Assembly (NCBI GenBank): GCA_025358455.1
Contig: JANYJP010000116.1
Coordinates: forward strand, 1 to 62,956
Source: Bacteroidales bacterium
Lineage (GTDB): Bacteria > Bacteroidota > Bacteroidia > Bacteroidales > VadinHA17
Direction of reading: 5' to 3'
Length of the DNA: 62,956 nucleotides
Shown here one piece after another: positions 37,002 through 43,167 of the stretch. The position numbers were made by a program, and so were the translations under genes. Within the stretch, counting starts at the first letter, position 1. The number at the start of each line of letters is the position of its first letter. The notes under the pieces are model-generated. The model searched no databases and was not told the DNA's origin. It saw only the letters and a list, made by a program, of their open reading frames with translations.

Positions 37002-37673
37002 TTAGTCTTGTGTAAGATTAAGAAGTGCGTTTTTATCGATGATCAGGATATTCCTGCCACTAACTTTAATATAACCTTCCTGCTCCATTTCCTTTAAAAC
37101 TCTCGCGATAGAAGGTCTGGCAACACCAAAATAATCGGACAGATCATTCTGTGTTCTGTCGAGCTTAATTTCATTTTTCTGATCATCAGCAAGCTTTAGG
37201 ATATATTGTGCAAGTTTGCCTTTTATTGTTTTGAAATTCAAAAATTTGATCTTCTCTGACAGGAATTGGGAACGGTTTGAAATCAGGTCAAGGAAGTTCA
37301 CAAGGATTTTATCATTATTTTTCAGCAGTTTCAGGAAATCTGATTTTTCAGCAACAAGTAAATCAGTATCTGAAATGGCGATTACATTTACCGGAAACCT
37401 ATTTATACTGCCAAAAATAAATGCTGCGGCCAGGGCCCCTGGTGCCTTTATATCCTCAATCTTGATTATTCTCCCTGCATAGTCAACCATTTCTCCTTTA
37501 ACAATCCCGCCTAAAACGATAACCAGTGAATTAATCGTATCGCCACTCTGATATATAAGAGTGCCGGCCTTATATTTTCTTATCCTGTGAGGCAATTGCA
37601 ACAGAATTTTTTCAATCTCAATTGCGGTTAACCCTCTGAATAAAGGGGATTCTGATAAAAGAGAATAGTCCAT
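37002..37673 (-). CDS. Crp/Fnr family transcriptional regulator without cysteines
   Basis: This 223-residue protein has an N-terminal cyclic-nucleotide-binding-like domain (about 10-120; FRGLTAIEIEKILLQLPHRIRKYKAGTLIYQSGD) and a C-terminal winged helix (about 150-215) with the recognition helix in DLSDYFGVARPSIARVLKEME. There is no cysteine in the protein, so it cannot hold an Fnr-type iron-sulphur cluster; an HcpR- or heme/redox-type signal or a small ligand is more likely. It is divergent from the ferredoxin-activase operon, and the 18-bp palindrome in between is a strong candidate for its binding site. Confidence 0.85.
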   Translation of the reverse strand: MDYSLLSESPLFRGLTAIEIEKILLQLPHRIRKYKAGTLIYQSGDTINSLVIVLGGIVKGEMVDYAGRIIKIEDIKAPGALAAAFIFGSINRFPVNVIAISDTDLLVAEKSDFLKLLKNNDKILVNFLDLISNRSQFLSEKIKFLNFKTIKGKLAQYILKLADDQKNEIKLDRTQNDLSDYFGVARPSIARVLKEMEQEGYIKVSGRNILIIDKNALLNLTQD

Positions 37674-37780
37674 GGTTTTTACGTAAAATTACGAAATTGT
37701 TAATCAAAAACACTGGTAGTGTGGCTTATCATGTTGCTATTTGACGGATAAAGTATATTGCAGAAACATATAAATTCATT

Positions 37781-37798
37781 TTGTAACATATGTTACAA
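37781..37798. promoter_or_regulatory. Perfect 18-bp palindrome, candidate Crp/Fnr operator
   Basis: TTGTAACATATGTTACAA is exactly self-complementary. Its form (TGT-A ... T-ACA half sites) is that of a Crp/Fnr-family operator. It lies in the 181-bp gap between the regulator gene (minus) and the ferredoxin gene (plus), 57 bp before the ferredoxin start codon, a position consistent with activation or with control of both promoters. Confidence 0.75.
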
Positions 37799-37854
37799 TC
37801 TATCCGGTTCTATTCCTTCAATTTTGTAAGAGAAAACAATTAACCCATACAATT

Positions 37855-38766
37855 ATGAAAAGGGATATTTTAAAAATTGATGAAGAACTTTGTAACGGTT
37901 GCGGACAATGCGTCCCAAACTGCCACGAAGGAGCCTTGCAGGTAATAGACGGTAAAGTAAGAATGGTAAGTGAATTAATGTGCGACGGACTCGGTGCCTG
38001 TATAGGGCATTGTCCTGAAGGAGCAATCACCATCGAGACCCGCGAAGCTGAGCCCTACAATGAAGTAAGAGTTATGGAGCAGATGAAGGATAAGGGTAAG
38101 AATACAATAATTGCACATCTTAAACATATGAAGGATCATGGGGAAACAGTTTTCCTGCAAGAGGGTGTCACATATCTCAAAGGCATTCGCAATGAGCTTA
38201 ATTTTAACCTGGATGAAGTTGTAAATGAGGTACATAATCACGGTAAAGTCATAACAAGCCCTCAACAAATTCAAGTTTTGCCTAATGCCCATGTGCATGA
38301 AGGAGGTGGATGTCCGGGATCAAGAACTATGGTTATTGAAAAGCGCGATTCTTCAAAAGACAGTCAGGTTTTAGCTGACCAGCCTTCAGAATTAAGACAA
38401 TGGCCCGTGCAGATGCATCTTGTTAATCCAAATGCATCATATTTCCAGGGTTCCGATCTATTGCTTGCTGCTGACTGTGTTGCATTTTCAATGGGAGGGT
38501 TTCATAATAAACATCTGAAAGGCAAGTCACTGGCAATTGCATGTCCGAAACTCGACCATGGGACTGATGTTTATGTGGAAAAACTTACTGCAATGATTGA
38601 CACAGCTAAAATAAACACAATTACTGTTATGATGATGGAGGTGCCATGCTGCGGAGGATTATTGCAAATGGTAAGAGCAGCTCTCGCTGTTGCATCACGG
38701 AAGGTACCTGTGAAGAAAATGATTGTAGGAATAAACGGGGAGGTTCTCCAGGAGGAATGGGTCTGA
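37855..38766 (+). CDS. Ferredoxin-like 4Fe-4S protein with C-terminal extension
   Basis: This is a 303-residue protein. The first cluster site is complete, CxxCxxCxxxC (ELCNGCGQCVPNC, about 12-24). The second site reads MCDGLGACIGHCPEG; it keeps three cysteines but has Leu where the second Cys of CxxC should be, so it may bind a [3Fe-4S] cluster or use a different ligand. The C-terminal region (about 125-300) is not a plain ferredoxin: it has GGGCPGS, LAADCVAFS, IACPKLD and MEVPCCGGLLQMV, several cysteines that could hold further metal. Proteins of this shape occur next to Crp/Fnr regulators and redox enzymes in anaerobes. It is the first gene of a unit with the giant activase. Confidence 0.82.
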   Translation: MKRDILKIDEELCNGCGQCVPNCHEGALQVIDGKVRMVSELMCDGLGACIGHCPEGAITIETREAEPYNEVRVMEQMKDKGKNTIIAHLKHMKDHGETVFLQEGVTYLKGIRNELNFNLDEVVNEVHNHGKVITSPQQIQVLPNAHVHEGGGCPGSRTMVIEKRDSSKDSQVLADQPSELRQWPVQMHLVNPNASYFQGSDLLLAADCVAFSMGGFHNKHLKGKSLAIACPKLDHGTDVYVEKLTAMIDTAKINTITVMMMEVPCCGGLLQMVRAALAVASRKVPVKKMIVGINGEVLQEEWV

Positions 38767-38910
38767 AAAACGACGTAACAGTTCCTGTTGTGCCGTTATG
38801 ATATATATCAGCTTCCGGTTTATTTAAATTGATTCTAAGTCACATAATAATTACTTTTGGGTCAGAGAGTTATTTCTACAACAGGTATCAAATCTGAAAT
38901 TATTCAAGTA

Positions 38911-41900
38911 ATGACGCAGGACTCTAAAAATATTACCGGATCTGGTAGTTCCTATTTTCTTGGATTTGATATTGGTTCAGTGTCCCTGAACACAGTCATT
39001 CTGGATAAGGATAATAATATTCTTGAGGAGTATTATGATTATGTACATGGGAAGCCATTTAATGTACTTAATGAAAGACTCACCCTGATACTTGATAAGA
39101 TATCGCCAGAATTAATTAATGGGATAGCTATAACTGGTACAGGAGGGAAACTTGCTACAGAGCTTATTGGCGGAATATTTGTAAATGAGATTATCGCACA
39201 GGCAACTTCAACTGGCCATTTATTCCCTGATGCCAGAACGGTAGTAGAGATCGGTGGTGAGGATTCAAAACTAATTCTTCTTGAAAAAGATCCTTTAAAT
39301 GGTCATTCCAGGCTTGTAGATTTTGAGATGAATAGTATTTGTGCCGCAGGAACAGGGTCATTTCTCGACCAGCAAGCCAGAAGAATCGGAGTTCCAATTG
39401 AAAAAGAGTTTGGGGAGATGGCACTTAAATCTGTCAATCCCCCTCGTATTGCAGGTCGATGCAGTGTTTTTGCGAAAAGTGATATGATTCACCATCAGCA
39501 GATTGCTACTCCTTTGCACGATATTGTTGCAGGGTTATGCTTTGCTCTGGCCAGAAATTTCAGGAGTAATGTTGCCAGAAGCAAAGAGATAAAAAAACCA
39601 GTTGTATTTTCTGGTGGTGTAGCTGCTAATATTGGTATGGTAAAAGCTTTCAGAGAGGTTCTAAACCTGACAGAAGAAGAGTTGATTATACCACCCCATC
39701 ATGCTTCTATGGGAGCCATTGGTGCAGTTATGTATGCAAGGTCGTGTAAGCTCGACATGAATCATTTCAGTGGAATTGATAAACTCAGAAAATATCTTGC
39801 AAATGATTCAACTCTCTTTACCAGCCTCCCTCCTCTCAGAAAATCAGATGCCATATACAATAAAGATGTTGATGTCAGACTTAAAACCGATGAAAAAACC
39901 CAGGTTTATCTAGGACTTGACATCGGCTCACTAAGTACAAACGTAGTTTTAATAGACCGGCAGCACAGGGTTGTCTCAAGAAGATATCTTCCAACGGCTG
40001 GTAAACCACTGGAAGCAATACGACAGGGATTGACAGAGATTTATGATGAGGTTGGAGAAAGTGTTGAAGTTTTAGGTGTTGGAACAACCGGATCGGGCCG
40101 GTACCTCACCGGTGACTTTATAGGTGCCGATACAATACAGAATGAGATCACAGCTCAGGCTACAGCTGCAATAGATTTTGACCCGACAGTTGAAACAATA
40201 TTTGAAATAGGCGGTCAGGATTCAAAATATATCAGTATTGAAAACGGCGTCGTGGTTGATTTTGAAATGAATAAAGTCTGTGCAGCAGGTACGGGCTCCT
40301 TTCTTGAGGAACAGGCTGAAAAACTGAATATCAATATTATTAATGAATTCGGAGAAATGGCACTTGGATCCGAGTGTCCGGTAAAGCTTGGTGACCGCTG
40401 TACTGTCTTTATGGAATCTGACCTGAACTCTTTTATGCAAAAGGGTGTACGAAATGAAAATCTGGTTGGCGGACTTGCGTATTCAATTGTATATAATTAT
40501 TTGCAGAAGGTTGTCGGGGATCGTAAGGTTGGAAATAAGATCTTTTTCCAGGGTGGAGTAACTAATAATAAAGCTGTTGTTGCTGCTTTTGAACAGGTTA
40601 CCGGGAAAAAGATAATAATACCACCCCATTTTGACGTAACCGGCGCAATCGGTGCCGCAATACTGGCCAAAAGGTCAATGACTGAAGGCCAGAAGACAAG
40701 ATTCAGAGGCTTTGGTGTCAGGAATGTAAATTATGATATAAGCAGATTTGTTTGTCAGTCATGTGCAAATCATTGCGAGATAAGAAGGGTTAAAATAGAT
40801 GGTTATAACAAACCTCTTTTCTATGGTGGAAGATGCGAAAGATATGAGACTGACGACAGGAAAAATGAACGCACAGATATTCCAAACCTCTTCAAGAAGA
40901 GACTTGAAATGCTTATGGATGGTTATTCAGAACATGATGTATGGAAAACTACAACTATAGGAATACCAAGATCTCTGATGGTATACTATCAGCAATTTCC
41001 TTTCTGGAGAACCTTCTTTGAACACCTTGGATTCACTGTTGTGCTTTCAAAAGAATCAGATAAAGATCTGGTGAACAAATCTATTGAGACAATAACCGCG
41101 GAGACTTGTCTGCCAGTAGAACTTATGCATGGTCACGTGATCGATCTGATTGAAAAAGGAGTTGATTATATTTTTCTGCCATTCATTGTTAACGCGAAAA
41201 AGAAGGAAGGTAACCCGACAAATAATTGTAACTGCCCATGGGTACAGACATATCCATTTATGGTAAAAGCTGCACTCCGGGGTAAAGTTGACGAATCCAA
41301 ACTTTTAGTGCCTACGCTTCATTTCAGATTCTTTGAAAGGGCTCTTGTTCCGGAGTTATCTGAGTTTTTCCATGACAAATTCGGAATAGAGAAAGTGGAG
41401 ATAAAAAAAGCAATTTATAAAGCAGATAAAATTCAGATTGAATTCGAAAACAGTCTGATTGAATATGGGAAGAAAATACTTAATTCACTGCCGGAAAACT
41501 GTCGGCCTGCAGTATTGCTGGGCAGACCATATAACAGCTCTGATTCTCATCTGAATCTTGGACTGGTAGAAAAGCTTATAAACCAGAACGTTATGCCAAT
41601 ACCTGTCGATATGCTTGATCTGTCGGAGTATAAGATCTTCGACAGTTACAGGAATATGTACTGGCCCAACGGACAAAAAATGATAGCTGCCGCTCAAATG
41701 GTTGCAAAAACTGACGGACTTTATGCAATTTACCTGAGCAATTTCCGCTGCGGACCCGATTCGTTCATATGGCATTATATTACTGAAGAGCTAAAAGGGA
41801 AACCGTTCCTCCATCTCGAAGTTGATGAACATTCAGCTGATGCCGGAATGGTTACACGTATTGAAGCTTTCCTCGATAGTCTGAAAGGCGCTGAAAAGAA

Positions 41901-43167
41901 CGAAAAGAAAGAGTATCAGATTATCAGACCAAGAACCGGGCCGGCATCACCCCAAAAAGAACGGATACTATATTTTCCGTATATGAACGACAGTGCATAC
42001 CTTATTGCAGCAGCTGCACGCGGATGTGGAATTGCTTCAGAGGTTTTACCTAAACAAACAGCAGAAGATCTGGCAATCGGAAGAAAATATACATCTTCAA
42101 AAGAATGCTTCCCTATGATCTGCACTACAGGTAGTTTTATAAAAAAATTACAGGAGCCGGGTGCAGATCCCTCAAAAATGAGCTTCTTTATGCCTGATCA
42201 TAATGGCCCATGCCGTTTTGGACAATATAACCAGTTTCACAGAGTACTTTTTGACAAGCTTGGCTACAAAGACGCTGAGCTTATAACACCTTCCAACGAT
42301 ACCTCATATGCTGATGTTGCAGGTAAACACAGCCAGAAATTCAGAATAAATGCATGGAAAGCGTTTTTAGTGTGCGATTATCTCAGGAAAATTTACAGGG
42401 AAACCAGGCCCTATGAAATTAATAAAGGGGAATGCGATATTCTTTATAACAAGTCACTTGCAAAACTTGAAAAATGTATTGAAAAAGGATCCAAAGGGCT
42501 GCATAATGTGCTGACGAGTATTGTATACGATTTCAAAGCTGTGAAAACTCATATGAGTGTGAAGAAACCAGTGGTAGCTATTATTGGTGAGATATTTATG
42601 CGCGACAACTCCGGTTGTAACGGTAGTATTGCGAACAGGCTTGAAGACCTTGGAGCTGAGGTTATTATCGGACCATTCTCAGAATGGCTGCATTATTCCA
42701 CTTACAGATTTACCCGCGACAGCCGGTGGAAGAATGACACTAAAGGGGTTATCAAGTCGAGAATTCAGGAAGTAGGTCAGGACATTATAGCAAGGTCATT
42801 ATTAAGAAATATTAAAGAGTTTACGGATCGCGGGAAGGATGTTTCACTTCATGAAATGCTAAGTCTTTGCAATCCTTATATCAGTAAGTTTTATGATGGT
42901 GATCCCGCCATTGCAATGGGCACTTCAGTAGCCCTTTATAATAAAGGTGTTACCGGAATAGCCGCTATCCTGCCCTTTACATGCATGCCCGGAACAGTCG
43001 TTGCCTCTGTAAGCGATACCTTCAGAAAAGATCATAACAACATTCCATTCATTAATATTGCTTATGATGGTCAGGACTCTGTTTCCCTCGATACCAGGCT
43101 TCAGGCATTTGTATTTCAGGTTAAGGAGTTTGCTTTAGCCAGGGAAAAGGTTCCTATAGAATTTTAA
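38911..43167 (+). CDS. Giant acyl-CoA dehydratase activase-type protein (two BadF/HgdC-like ATPase domains plus dehydratase-related C-terminus)
   Basis: I choose the ATG at 38911, giving about 1418 residues; the frame opens with TTG 18 codons earlier. Two ASKHA ATPase domains follow each other: YFLGFDIGSVSLNTVIL (about 14 on) and VYLGLDIGSLSTNVVLI (about 331 on). Each has the cluster-binding signature CAAGTGSFL (FEMNSICAAGTG and FEMNKVCAAGTG) and a second Cys in RC(S/T)VF. A cysteine motif, FVCQSCANHCEIRR, begins about 612. The rest (about 640-1418) contains DUF2229/2-hydroxyacyl-CoA-dehydratase-like segments (AETCLPVELMHGH, ILGRPYNSSDSHLN, SKECFPMICTTGSF). HgdC-type activases use ATP to fire low-potential electrons into a dehydratase or a double-cubane protein. 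Here activase and acceptor-like parts are fused. It is probably fed by the upstream ferredoxin. The reaction is unknown. Confidence 0.82.
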   Translation: MTQDSKNITGSGSSYFLGFDIGSVSLNTVILDKDNNILEEYYDYVHGKPFNVLNERLTLILDKISPELINGIAITGTGGKLATELIGGIFVNEIIAQATSTGHLFPDARTVVEIGGEDSKLILLEKDPLNGHSRLVDFEMNSICAAGTGSFLDQQARRIGVPIEKEFGEMALKSVNPPRIAGRCSVFAKSDMIHHQQIATPLHDIVAGLCFALARNFRSNVARSKEIKKPVVFSGGVAANIGMVKAFREVLNLTEEELIIPPHHASMGAIGAVMYARSCKLDMNHFSGIDKLRKYLANDSTLFTSLPPLRKSDAIYNKDVDVRLKTDEKTQVYLGLDIGSLSTNVVLIDRQHRVVSRRYLPTAGKPLEAIRQGLTEIYDEVGESVEVLGVGTTGSGRYLTGDFIGADTIQNEITAQATAAIDFDPTVETIFEIGGQDSKYISIENGVVVDFEMNKVCAAGTGSFLEEQAEKLNINIINEFGEMALGSECPVKLGDRCTVFMESDLNSFMQKGVRNENLVGGLAYSIVYNYLQKVVGDRKVGNKIFFQGGVTNNKAVVAAFEQVTGKKIIIPPHFDVTGAIGAAILAKRSMTEGQKTRFRGFGVRNVNYDISRFVCQSCANHCEIRRVKIDGYNKPLFYGGRCERYETDDRKNERTDIPNLFKKRLEMLMDGYSEHDVWKTTTIGIPRSLMVYYQQFPFWRTFFEHLGFTVVLSKESDKDLVNKSIETITAETCLPVELMHGHVIDLIEKGVDYIFLPFIVNAKKKEGNPTNNCNCPWVQTYPFMVKAALRGKVDESKLLVPTLHFRFFERALVPELSEFFHDKFGIEKVEIKKAIYKADKIQIEFENSLIEYGKKILNSLPENCRPAVLLGRPYNSSDSHLNLGLVEKLINQNVMPIPVDMLDLSEYKIFDSYRNMYWPNGQKMIAAAQMVAKTDGLYAIYLSNFRCGPDSFIWHYITEELKGKPFLHLEVDEHSADAGMVTRIEAFLDSLKGAEKNEKKEYQIIRPRTGPASPQKERILYFPYMNDSAYLIAAAARGCGIASEVLPKQTAEDLAIGRKYTSSKECFPMICTTGSFIKKLQEPGADPSKMSFFMPDHNGPCRFGQYNQFHRVLFDKLGYKDAELITPSNDTSYADVAGKHSQKFRINAWKAFLVCDYLRKIYRETRPYEINKGECDILYNKSLAKLEKCIEKGSKGLHNVLTSIVYDFKAVKTHMSVKKPVVAIIGEIFMRDNSGCNGSIANRLEDLGAEVIIGPFSEWLHYSTYRFTRDSRWKNDTKGVIKSRIQEVGQDIIARSLLRNIKEFTDRGKDVSLHEMLSLCNPYISKFYDGDPAIAMGTSVALYNKGVTGIAAILPFTCMPGTVVASVSDTFRKDHNNIPFINIAYDGQDSVSLDTRLQAFVFQVKEFALAREKVPIEF

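Follow-up and report, generated by a model that had tools for sequence, protein, structure and literature searches.

The closest described counterpart of the locus discussed here is the HcpR–frdX–hcp regulon of Desulfovibrio and Clostridia, whose HcpR2 branch occurs in Bacteroides, Clostridium and Thermotogales. In C. difficile, nitric oxide (NO) raises frdX and hcp approximately 200-fold via HcpR, and a frdX knock-down is NO-sensitive (PMC12915319; papers given by PMC number, here and below, are cited for individual passages). Rodionov et al. (2005; PMC1274295) defined the HcpR2 branch by two marks: a proline at CRP position 181, beside Arg180, and the operator GTAACnnnnGTTAC, which precedes hcp in Clostridium, Bacteroides and Thermotogales. 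Here, we describe a related locus on contig JANYJP010000116.1 of a Bacteroidales bacterium (assembly GCA_025358455.1), a stretch of 62,956 nucleotides that we refer to as the window. It shares with the known regulon a cysteine-free Arg-Pro regulator, the operator and a FrdX-like ferredoxin divergent from the regulator. In many relatives hcp follows, whereas in the source genome hcp is missing and FrdX is followed instead by a giant activase-reductase of 1418 residues. We lean towards reading this giant as an ATP-driven, low-potential, one-chain reductase that entered an HcpR nitrosative-stress locus in a single recruitment event.

For the giant, three described groups of ATP-driven enzymes offer a comparison. 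Class I benzoyl-CoA reductases (BCR I; BzdNOPQ and MbdONPQ) have, like the giant, two HgdC/BadF units and two homologous acceptor units; in BzdO, the active [4Fe-4S] cluster is held by Cys95, Cys128 and Cys380 (PMC11971306). The 2-hydroxyacyl-CoA dehydratases (HAD; HgdC with HgdAB, HadI with HadBC) likewise combine an ATPase with two modules that carry three cysteines each. The third is the ATP-dependent double-cubane cluster protein (DCCP) with its reductase; DCCP reduces acetylene, hydrazine and azide, and its physiological role is stated to be unclear (PMC11971306). Closest in architecture are the uncharacterized 'acyl-CoA dehydratase activase' giants (TIGR00241 twice plus DUF2229), which have the same architecture and the same 14 cysteines as the protein described here. 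Regulator, ferredoxin and giant architecture are each already known.

No part of the locus tells more than the regulator, whose class went unnamed when the locus was first described. It is encoded on the minus strand (37002–37673; 223 residues, no cysteine) and contains cNMP_binding and HTH_Crp_2 domains. By its residues it is classified as an HcpR2-like Crp/Fnr protein: the recognition helix reads A-R186-P187-S188, and the Arg186/Pro187 pair that marks the HcpR2 branch is present in all 57 aligned relatives. Among solved structures, it is nearest to 1o5l and 9day, the latter being the entry for full-length HcpR (structure described in PMC12750200, where code 9DAY appears). Met62 aligns to Met68 of P. 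gingivalis HcpR, a functionally required residue involved in heme use (PMC12750200), and is a methionine in 55 of the 57 relatives. Adjacency to hcp, a further mark of HcpR2 regulators, is seen in relatives of the locus and is lacking here, with no Hcp match in the source genome (a 3.4-Mb draft, 95.7% complete). This absence lowers the likelihood that the regulator controls hcp in this organism, while leaving the regulator type untouched.

The predicted HcpR2 operator is a perfect palindrome, TTGTAACATATGTTACAA (37781–37798, no strand), with its core GTAACN4GTTAC at 37783–37796. This core has one match in the window versus 0.03 expected. Of 78 loci compared, 62 have it in the 300 bp that precede the ferredoxin gene, with no such occurrence for any of 59 permuted half-sites, and it mostly begins 60–90 bp ahead of the ferredoxin start codon. 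In 28 of the 62 loci a T(A/G)nnTTTG box follows 22–23 bp downstream, a spacing that fits an activator site. The source genome contains three exact TGTAACN4GTTACA sites, of which only the one in this locus plausibly precedes a gene; the others lie inside an open reading frame (ORF) or beyond a 3′ end. In several relatives (L004, L005, L008, L009, L016 and others), hcpR and frdX are separated by an inserted M28-type peptidase gene, and the operator stays with frdX.

The ferredoxin gene (37855–38766, plus strand; 303 residues, Fer4) encodes a FrdX-like protein, a name that we take from the HcpR–hcp setting. In an order-level sample, Hcp is encoded in 49 of 77 genomes with FrdX as opposed to 16 of 71 without it (odds ratio 6, p 5e-7), and in 39 of the 49 genomes with both, FrdX lies within 3 kb of hcp, as expected for an HcpR–hcp operon member. 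An alignment of 41 rows reveals one CxxCxxCxxxC site and a second cluster site with three cysteines only (C43, C49 and C53), where Leu46 invariantly takes the place of one cysteine. The C-terminal domain carries five further invariant cysteines (C153, C208, C230, C265 and C266). The structure model has low confidence at the N-terminus, and no match was found for FrdX in PHROGs. The modelled C-terminal domain weakly resembles beta-carbonic anhydrases (best E 0.008, none ≤0.001). Relatives with FrdX loci are mostly Bacteroidales or Bacteroidetes metagenome-assembled genomes (MAGs). Among the 99 of 102 loci that were laid out (L048, L078 and L184 were left out), FrdX neighbors include Hcp, NrfHA, cupins, Rrf2 regulators, YgbA_NO and DUF438-hemerythrin-PAS proteins. 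The FrdX-like genes outside the hcp setting (L052, L060, L083, L182 to L199) are accompanied by this same set, Hcp excepted, which is a wider nitrogen-oxide context.

The giant is encoded on the plus strand, from an ATG at 38911 to a stop at 43167; an alternative TTG start would extend the ORF to 38857–43167. The sequence-only reading of this DNA had described a cysteine-free Crp/Fnr regulator divergent from a ferredoxin-like gene and from a protein fusing two HgdC/BadF-type ATPases to dehydratase-related sequence. All three genes are genuine and placed as described, and Pfam and NCBIfam profiles confirm the domains. The giant matches BcrAD_BadFG twice (264.7 bits, cut-off 31.5), TIGR00241 twice, DUF2229 (218.7 bits, cut-off 29.4) and, weakly, HGD-D (28.2 bits, cut-off 28.4). 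Its first ATPase domain (38959–39738, plus strand) carries C144 and C184 in the CAAGTG and GRC motifs, and the second (39910–40668, plus) carries C457 and C497; HgdC-type ATPase motifs are intact in both, each with its two cluster cysteines. Next is a four-cysteine linker (40753–40836, plus; C615, C618, C622 and C642), each cysteine of which is found in 63 of 63 homologs. The first dehydratase/reductase-like module (40948–41910, plus) covers DUF2229 and the end of HGD-D, with cluster-type cysteines C733, C775 and C947; the second (41953–43122, plus) has C1066, C1101 and C1358, as well as the clade-specific C1071 and C1236. This two-ATPase plus DUF2229 fusion is a widespread architecture and not particular to the source genome: DUF2229 occurs in 42 of 148 order-level genomes, mostly in open frames of approximately 1400 residues.

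The 14 cysteines named above, apart from the clade-specific pair, are kept in 35 of 35 homologs below 45% identity in a 63-row alignment made with no motif filter. An earlier count had used a filter for ETC or CGPDS strings, which favored two of the sites and left 11 distant rows; alignments A2, A4 and A5 rest on rows filtered in this way. C1071 and C1236 are present in 28 of 28 rows of at least 45% identity, and in 1 and 0, respectively, of the 35 distant rows. They are limited to the FrdX-linked clade and a clade of giants at approximately 60% identity, and may serve as additional cluster ligands of the C-terminal module. In the linked clade, this module has five cysteines (C1066, C1071, C1101, C1236 and C1358), with C1320 in addition in 20 of 27 rows.

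Both acceptor modules are homologous to each other, as a profile comparison over 281 columns (probability 96.9, E 1.5e-10) superposes C733/C775/C947 on C1066/C1101/C1358. Modelling and sequence assign the acceptor half to the BCR I/HAD/DCCP fold, with three cluster-type cysteines per module: in a Foldseek comparison of its predicted structure with the PDB, all 10 matches at E ≤0.001 are chains of DCCP, BzdNO, MbdON(PQ) or 2-hydroxyisocaproyl-CoA dehydratase, with the DCCP chain 7yzm_A as the best. Searching the PDB with a sequence profile of the acceptor half gave chance matches only (best E 0.8). The proposal that activase and acceptor form a low-potential, ATP-driven machine in one chain is thus borne out by fold class and conserved cysteines, and the cluster site looked for in the acceptor half is present in the form of two three-cysteine sites rather than a clear double cubane. 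The giant may therefore act much as a full ATP-driven reductase or dehydratase would, with two acceptor sites on one chain.

The spacing of C1066, C1101 and C1358 (35 and 257 residues) is close to that of the three BzdO cluster ligands (33 and 252). Nevertheless, the giant differs from BzdNOPQ and MbdONPQ in having all units in one chain and an extra four-cysteine linker, with no evidence of a six-cysteine double cubane. BzdO His131, three residues after Cys128, has no counterpart, as the giant reads C1101-R-F-G (a glycine at this position) and C775-P-W-V. We therefore rejected a benzoyl-CoA reductase by its residues: the catalytic histidine is missing and no six-cysteine set is conserved in the giant family. 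Compared with 2-hydroxyacyl-CoA dehydratases, the giant is one chain with two unequal ATPase domains. In agreement with the sequence-only reading, no separate dehydratase pair (HgdA/HgdB) or CoA-transferase was seen among the proteins scanned beside the locus; that result covers the neighborhood, as a genome-wide HGD-D/CoA-transferase search was not made. DCCP is a homodimer with six-cysteine double cubanes, in contrast to the generally three cysteines per module of the giant.

A tree of 91 giants places the FrdX-linked ones together in a single clade of 26 rows (support 99). Of these rows, 25 are linked; the last, L206, has its FrdX on another contig of the same genome. The linked loci were found through FrdX, which biases linkage counts, and the test was therefore repeated starting from the giant. 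This giant-ascertained family sample comprised 117 genomes, 80 of them with a match. A close giant was present in 60 genomes, and one at approximately 54–64% identity in 18. From 51 of the 60 close-giant genomes, 52 upstream stretches were obtained, the remaining nine lacking the N-terminus or having almost no upstream sequence. Within these 52 stretches, FrdX was found in 44, the regulator in 38, the palindrome in 41 and Hcp in 12. By contrast with this close clade, FrdX stood beside none of seven giants at approximately 60% identity (7 of the 18 genomes were checked). The expectation that the trio would be conserved consequently holds for the close clade and fails for the giant family as a whole, where homologs mostly occur without ferredoxin and regulator. 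Among the giants sampled, linkage to an HcpR locus and a dyad-promoter of its own set the linked clade apart.

A dedicated electron-transfer system, as the sequence-only reading had proposed, would have FrdX dedicated to supplying the giant with electrons, with the three genes forming one functional unit. The adjacency of FrdX and giant in those 44 stretches and the ferredoxin cluster motifs of FrdX speak for it. We nonetheless consider it unlikely, since both the regulator and the ferredoxin are members of the known HcpR/FrdX nitrosative-stress set, FrdX occurs mostly without a giant (it is present in 58 of 106 order-level genomes without one, mostly beside hcp) and giants mostly lack FrdX. 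Moreover, five loci keep regulator and operator and have lost FrdX: in L280, L281 and L304 these directly precede the giant, while in L290 and L291 Hcp is present as well. A further stretch, L284 (1 kb long), has only Hcp and no FrdX.

A second possibility is that, in genomes that lost hcp, the giant has taken over the handling of nitrogen oxides from Hcp. The source genome has no Hcp, nor do 17 of 25 genomes with FrdX and the giant, although MAG incompleteness makes such absences less telling. Against it, six loci carry FrdX, Hcp and the giant together (L032, L034, L037, L046, L059 and L065). Six near relatives have hcpR–frdX and no DUF2229 giant (L022, L024, L029, L031, L044 and L064), and four of these also lack Hcp; Hcp is thus present in 2 of 6 such relatives and in 8 of 25 FrdX–giant genomes. 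As Hcp is missing as often without DUF2229, nothing points to its replacement by the giant, and we regard this substitution as very unlikely. The same relatives imply that FrdX must act independently of both Hcp and the giant.

The giant probably has a Crp/Fnr-type promoter of its own, perhaps besides read-through from frdX, as indicated by a dyad and a box in the gap before it. An Fnr-like dyad, TGATATATATCA, lies at 38799–38810 (no strand), and TACTTTTG (38852–38859, plus strand), which matches the Bacteroidota −7 box TAnnTTTG, is located 47 bp after the dyad center. TAnnTTTG is found in 21 of 33 gaps between FrdX (or Hcp) and the giant, while shuffled gaps gave a mean of 4.0 and at most 11. 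For the window by itself, TGATN4ATCA is no rarer than chance would predict; in the gaps, the exact form occurs in 11 of 33, versus 0 or 1 for 11 permuted half-sites. Twelve gaps contain a box together with a dyad of at most one mismatch, and in 8 of these 12 the two are spaced 47–49 bp.

This promoter leads to the strongest counter-reading, in which the giant is a general-purpose or fermentation enzyme (e.g. a radical dehydratase or reductase acting on an acyl-CoA or other substrate), regulated by anoxia through its own Fnr-like promoter and placed beside hcpR–frdX by one ancestral rearrangement. In its favor, L307 keeps dyad and box at 47 bp far from any hcpR–frdX, giants of other clades are unlinked, and the single origin of the linkage could be a chance event retained by descent. 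However, the linkage has persisted in 44 of 52 stretches despite changes around it (M28 peptidase insertion, hcp, FrdX loss), and in the three loci that retain only regulator, operator and giant (L280, L281 and L304), these have still stayed together. In addition, the dyad is not part of giants generally: in the 60% clade and distant giants it occurs in 1 of 24, at another place. Taken together, we judge an anoxia-regulated enzyme that came to lie here once and stayed to be rather unlikely.

Several observations weigh against recruitment of the giant into an HcpR nitrosative-stress locus. L260 and L307 have no FrdX, regulator or hcp within 6.3 kb, and none of 45 giant stretches from order and phylum samples (36 with at least 2.5 kb upstream) has FrdX, regulator or Hcp. 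At the order level, giant and FrdX do not co-occur beyond chance (FrdX in 19 of 42 giant genomes versus the 58 of 106 without giant, p = 0.36), and FrdX persists in the four near relatives that have neither Hcp nor giant. A regulon defined by the palindrome across the source genome was tried and rejected, as there is no excess of sites at one mismatch (22 versus 19 in the control). Because the giant has its own promoter-like box and dyad, it need not be co-induced by HcpR; in L280, L281 and L304, moreover, the palindrome is 202–207 bp ahead of the giant, lacks an accompanying TAnnTTTG box and is possibly a remnant. The residues from which a heme or NO response of the regulator is judged are mixed, the Met68 counterpart being kept and the second proposed heme residue, His149, being replaced by Lys143; in HcpR, His149 is neither conserved nor essential (PMC12750200). 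On the structural side, the AlphaFold model of the acceptor half is only fair (predicted local distance difference test 68, predicted template-modelling (TM) score 0.60), and the Foldseek TM-scores are low, at 0.22–0.25 normalized by query.

If the giant was indeed recruited into the HcpR response, the system could operate as follows. HcpR2 would sense NO, presumably by heme, and activate frdX from the GTAACN4GTTAC operator approximately 70 bp before its start. The giant would be drawn into the response through transcription that continues from frdX, through its own promoter with the Crp/Fnr-type dyad, or through both. A low-potential ferredoxin, FrdX or another, would then reduce a [4Fe-4S] cluster held between the ATPase domains (C144/C184 and C457/C497), and ATP hydrolysis would drive the electron to a very low potential. 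From there, the electron may pass, perhaps via a cluster in the four-cysteine linker, to two site-differentiated [4Fe-4S] clusters at C733/C775/C947 and C1066/C1101/C1358, where the substrate would be reduced. The domain composition, cysteine sets, fold class, operator and clade-limited linkage were observed, and the NO signal, the co-induction and the direction of electron flow are what we infer. As the most probable substrate, we favor something that nitrosative stress either generates (such as an N-oxide) or damages (such as a metal or cofactor center) over a fermentation CoA ester. In a more specific version, the linked-clade giant would be a nitrogenase-like, HcpR-controlled and FrdX-fed reductase that acts on a small molecule derived from a nitrogen oxide or on an NO-damaged metal center at site-differentiated or enlarged Fe-S clusters involving C1071/C1236; we put this forward as a speculation that is more probably wrong than right by a wide measure.

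The locus suggests, without proving it, that an ATP-powered reductase working at very low potential helps some anaerobic bacteria to cope with nitrogen oxides. A clade under a regulator of known signal class provides a first concrete handle on the function of these widespread giants, and their conserved cysteine sets give an exact cluster count to test. Should the more specific version hold, a one-chain BCR/HAD/DCCP-type machine would gain its first physiological role. A nitrosative role would also be one answer to what DCCP-type small-molecule reduction does physiologically, described as unclear. In the open-licence PMC literature searched, we found no HcpR linked with an activase, no function for one-chain activase-reductase giants, and neither the trio combination nor the clade-specific promoter or cysteine pair. 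One lead is Ddes_0545 of D. desulfuricans, a separate 2-hydroxyglutaryl-CoA dehydratase D-component that is upregulated on nitrate (log2 3.97; PMC5701242); it is a different kind of gene from the giant, and its response was seen on nitrate, not NO.

Elsewhere in the source genome, PF01869 matches at one further, weak place below the cut-off, besides twice in the giant. Viral contigs contained no relative of the giant, and PHROGs gave one weak match to it. The flanking genes that were scanned, which encode PdxB, a Dpp7-like S46 peptidase, a PMT_2 glycosyltransferase, a PAP2 protein and a weakly CehA-like protein, appear unrelated to the trio.

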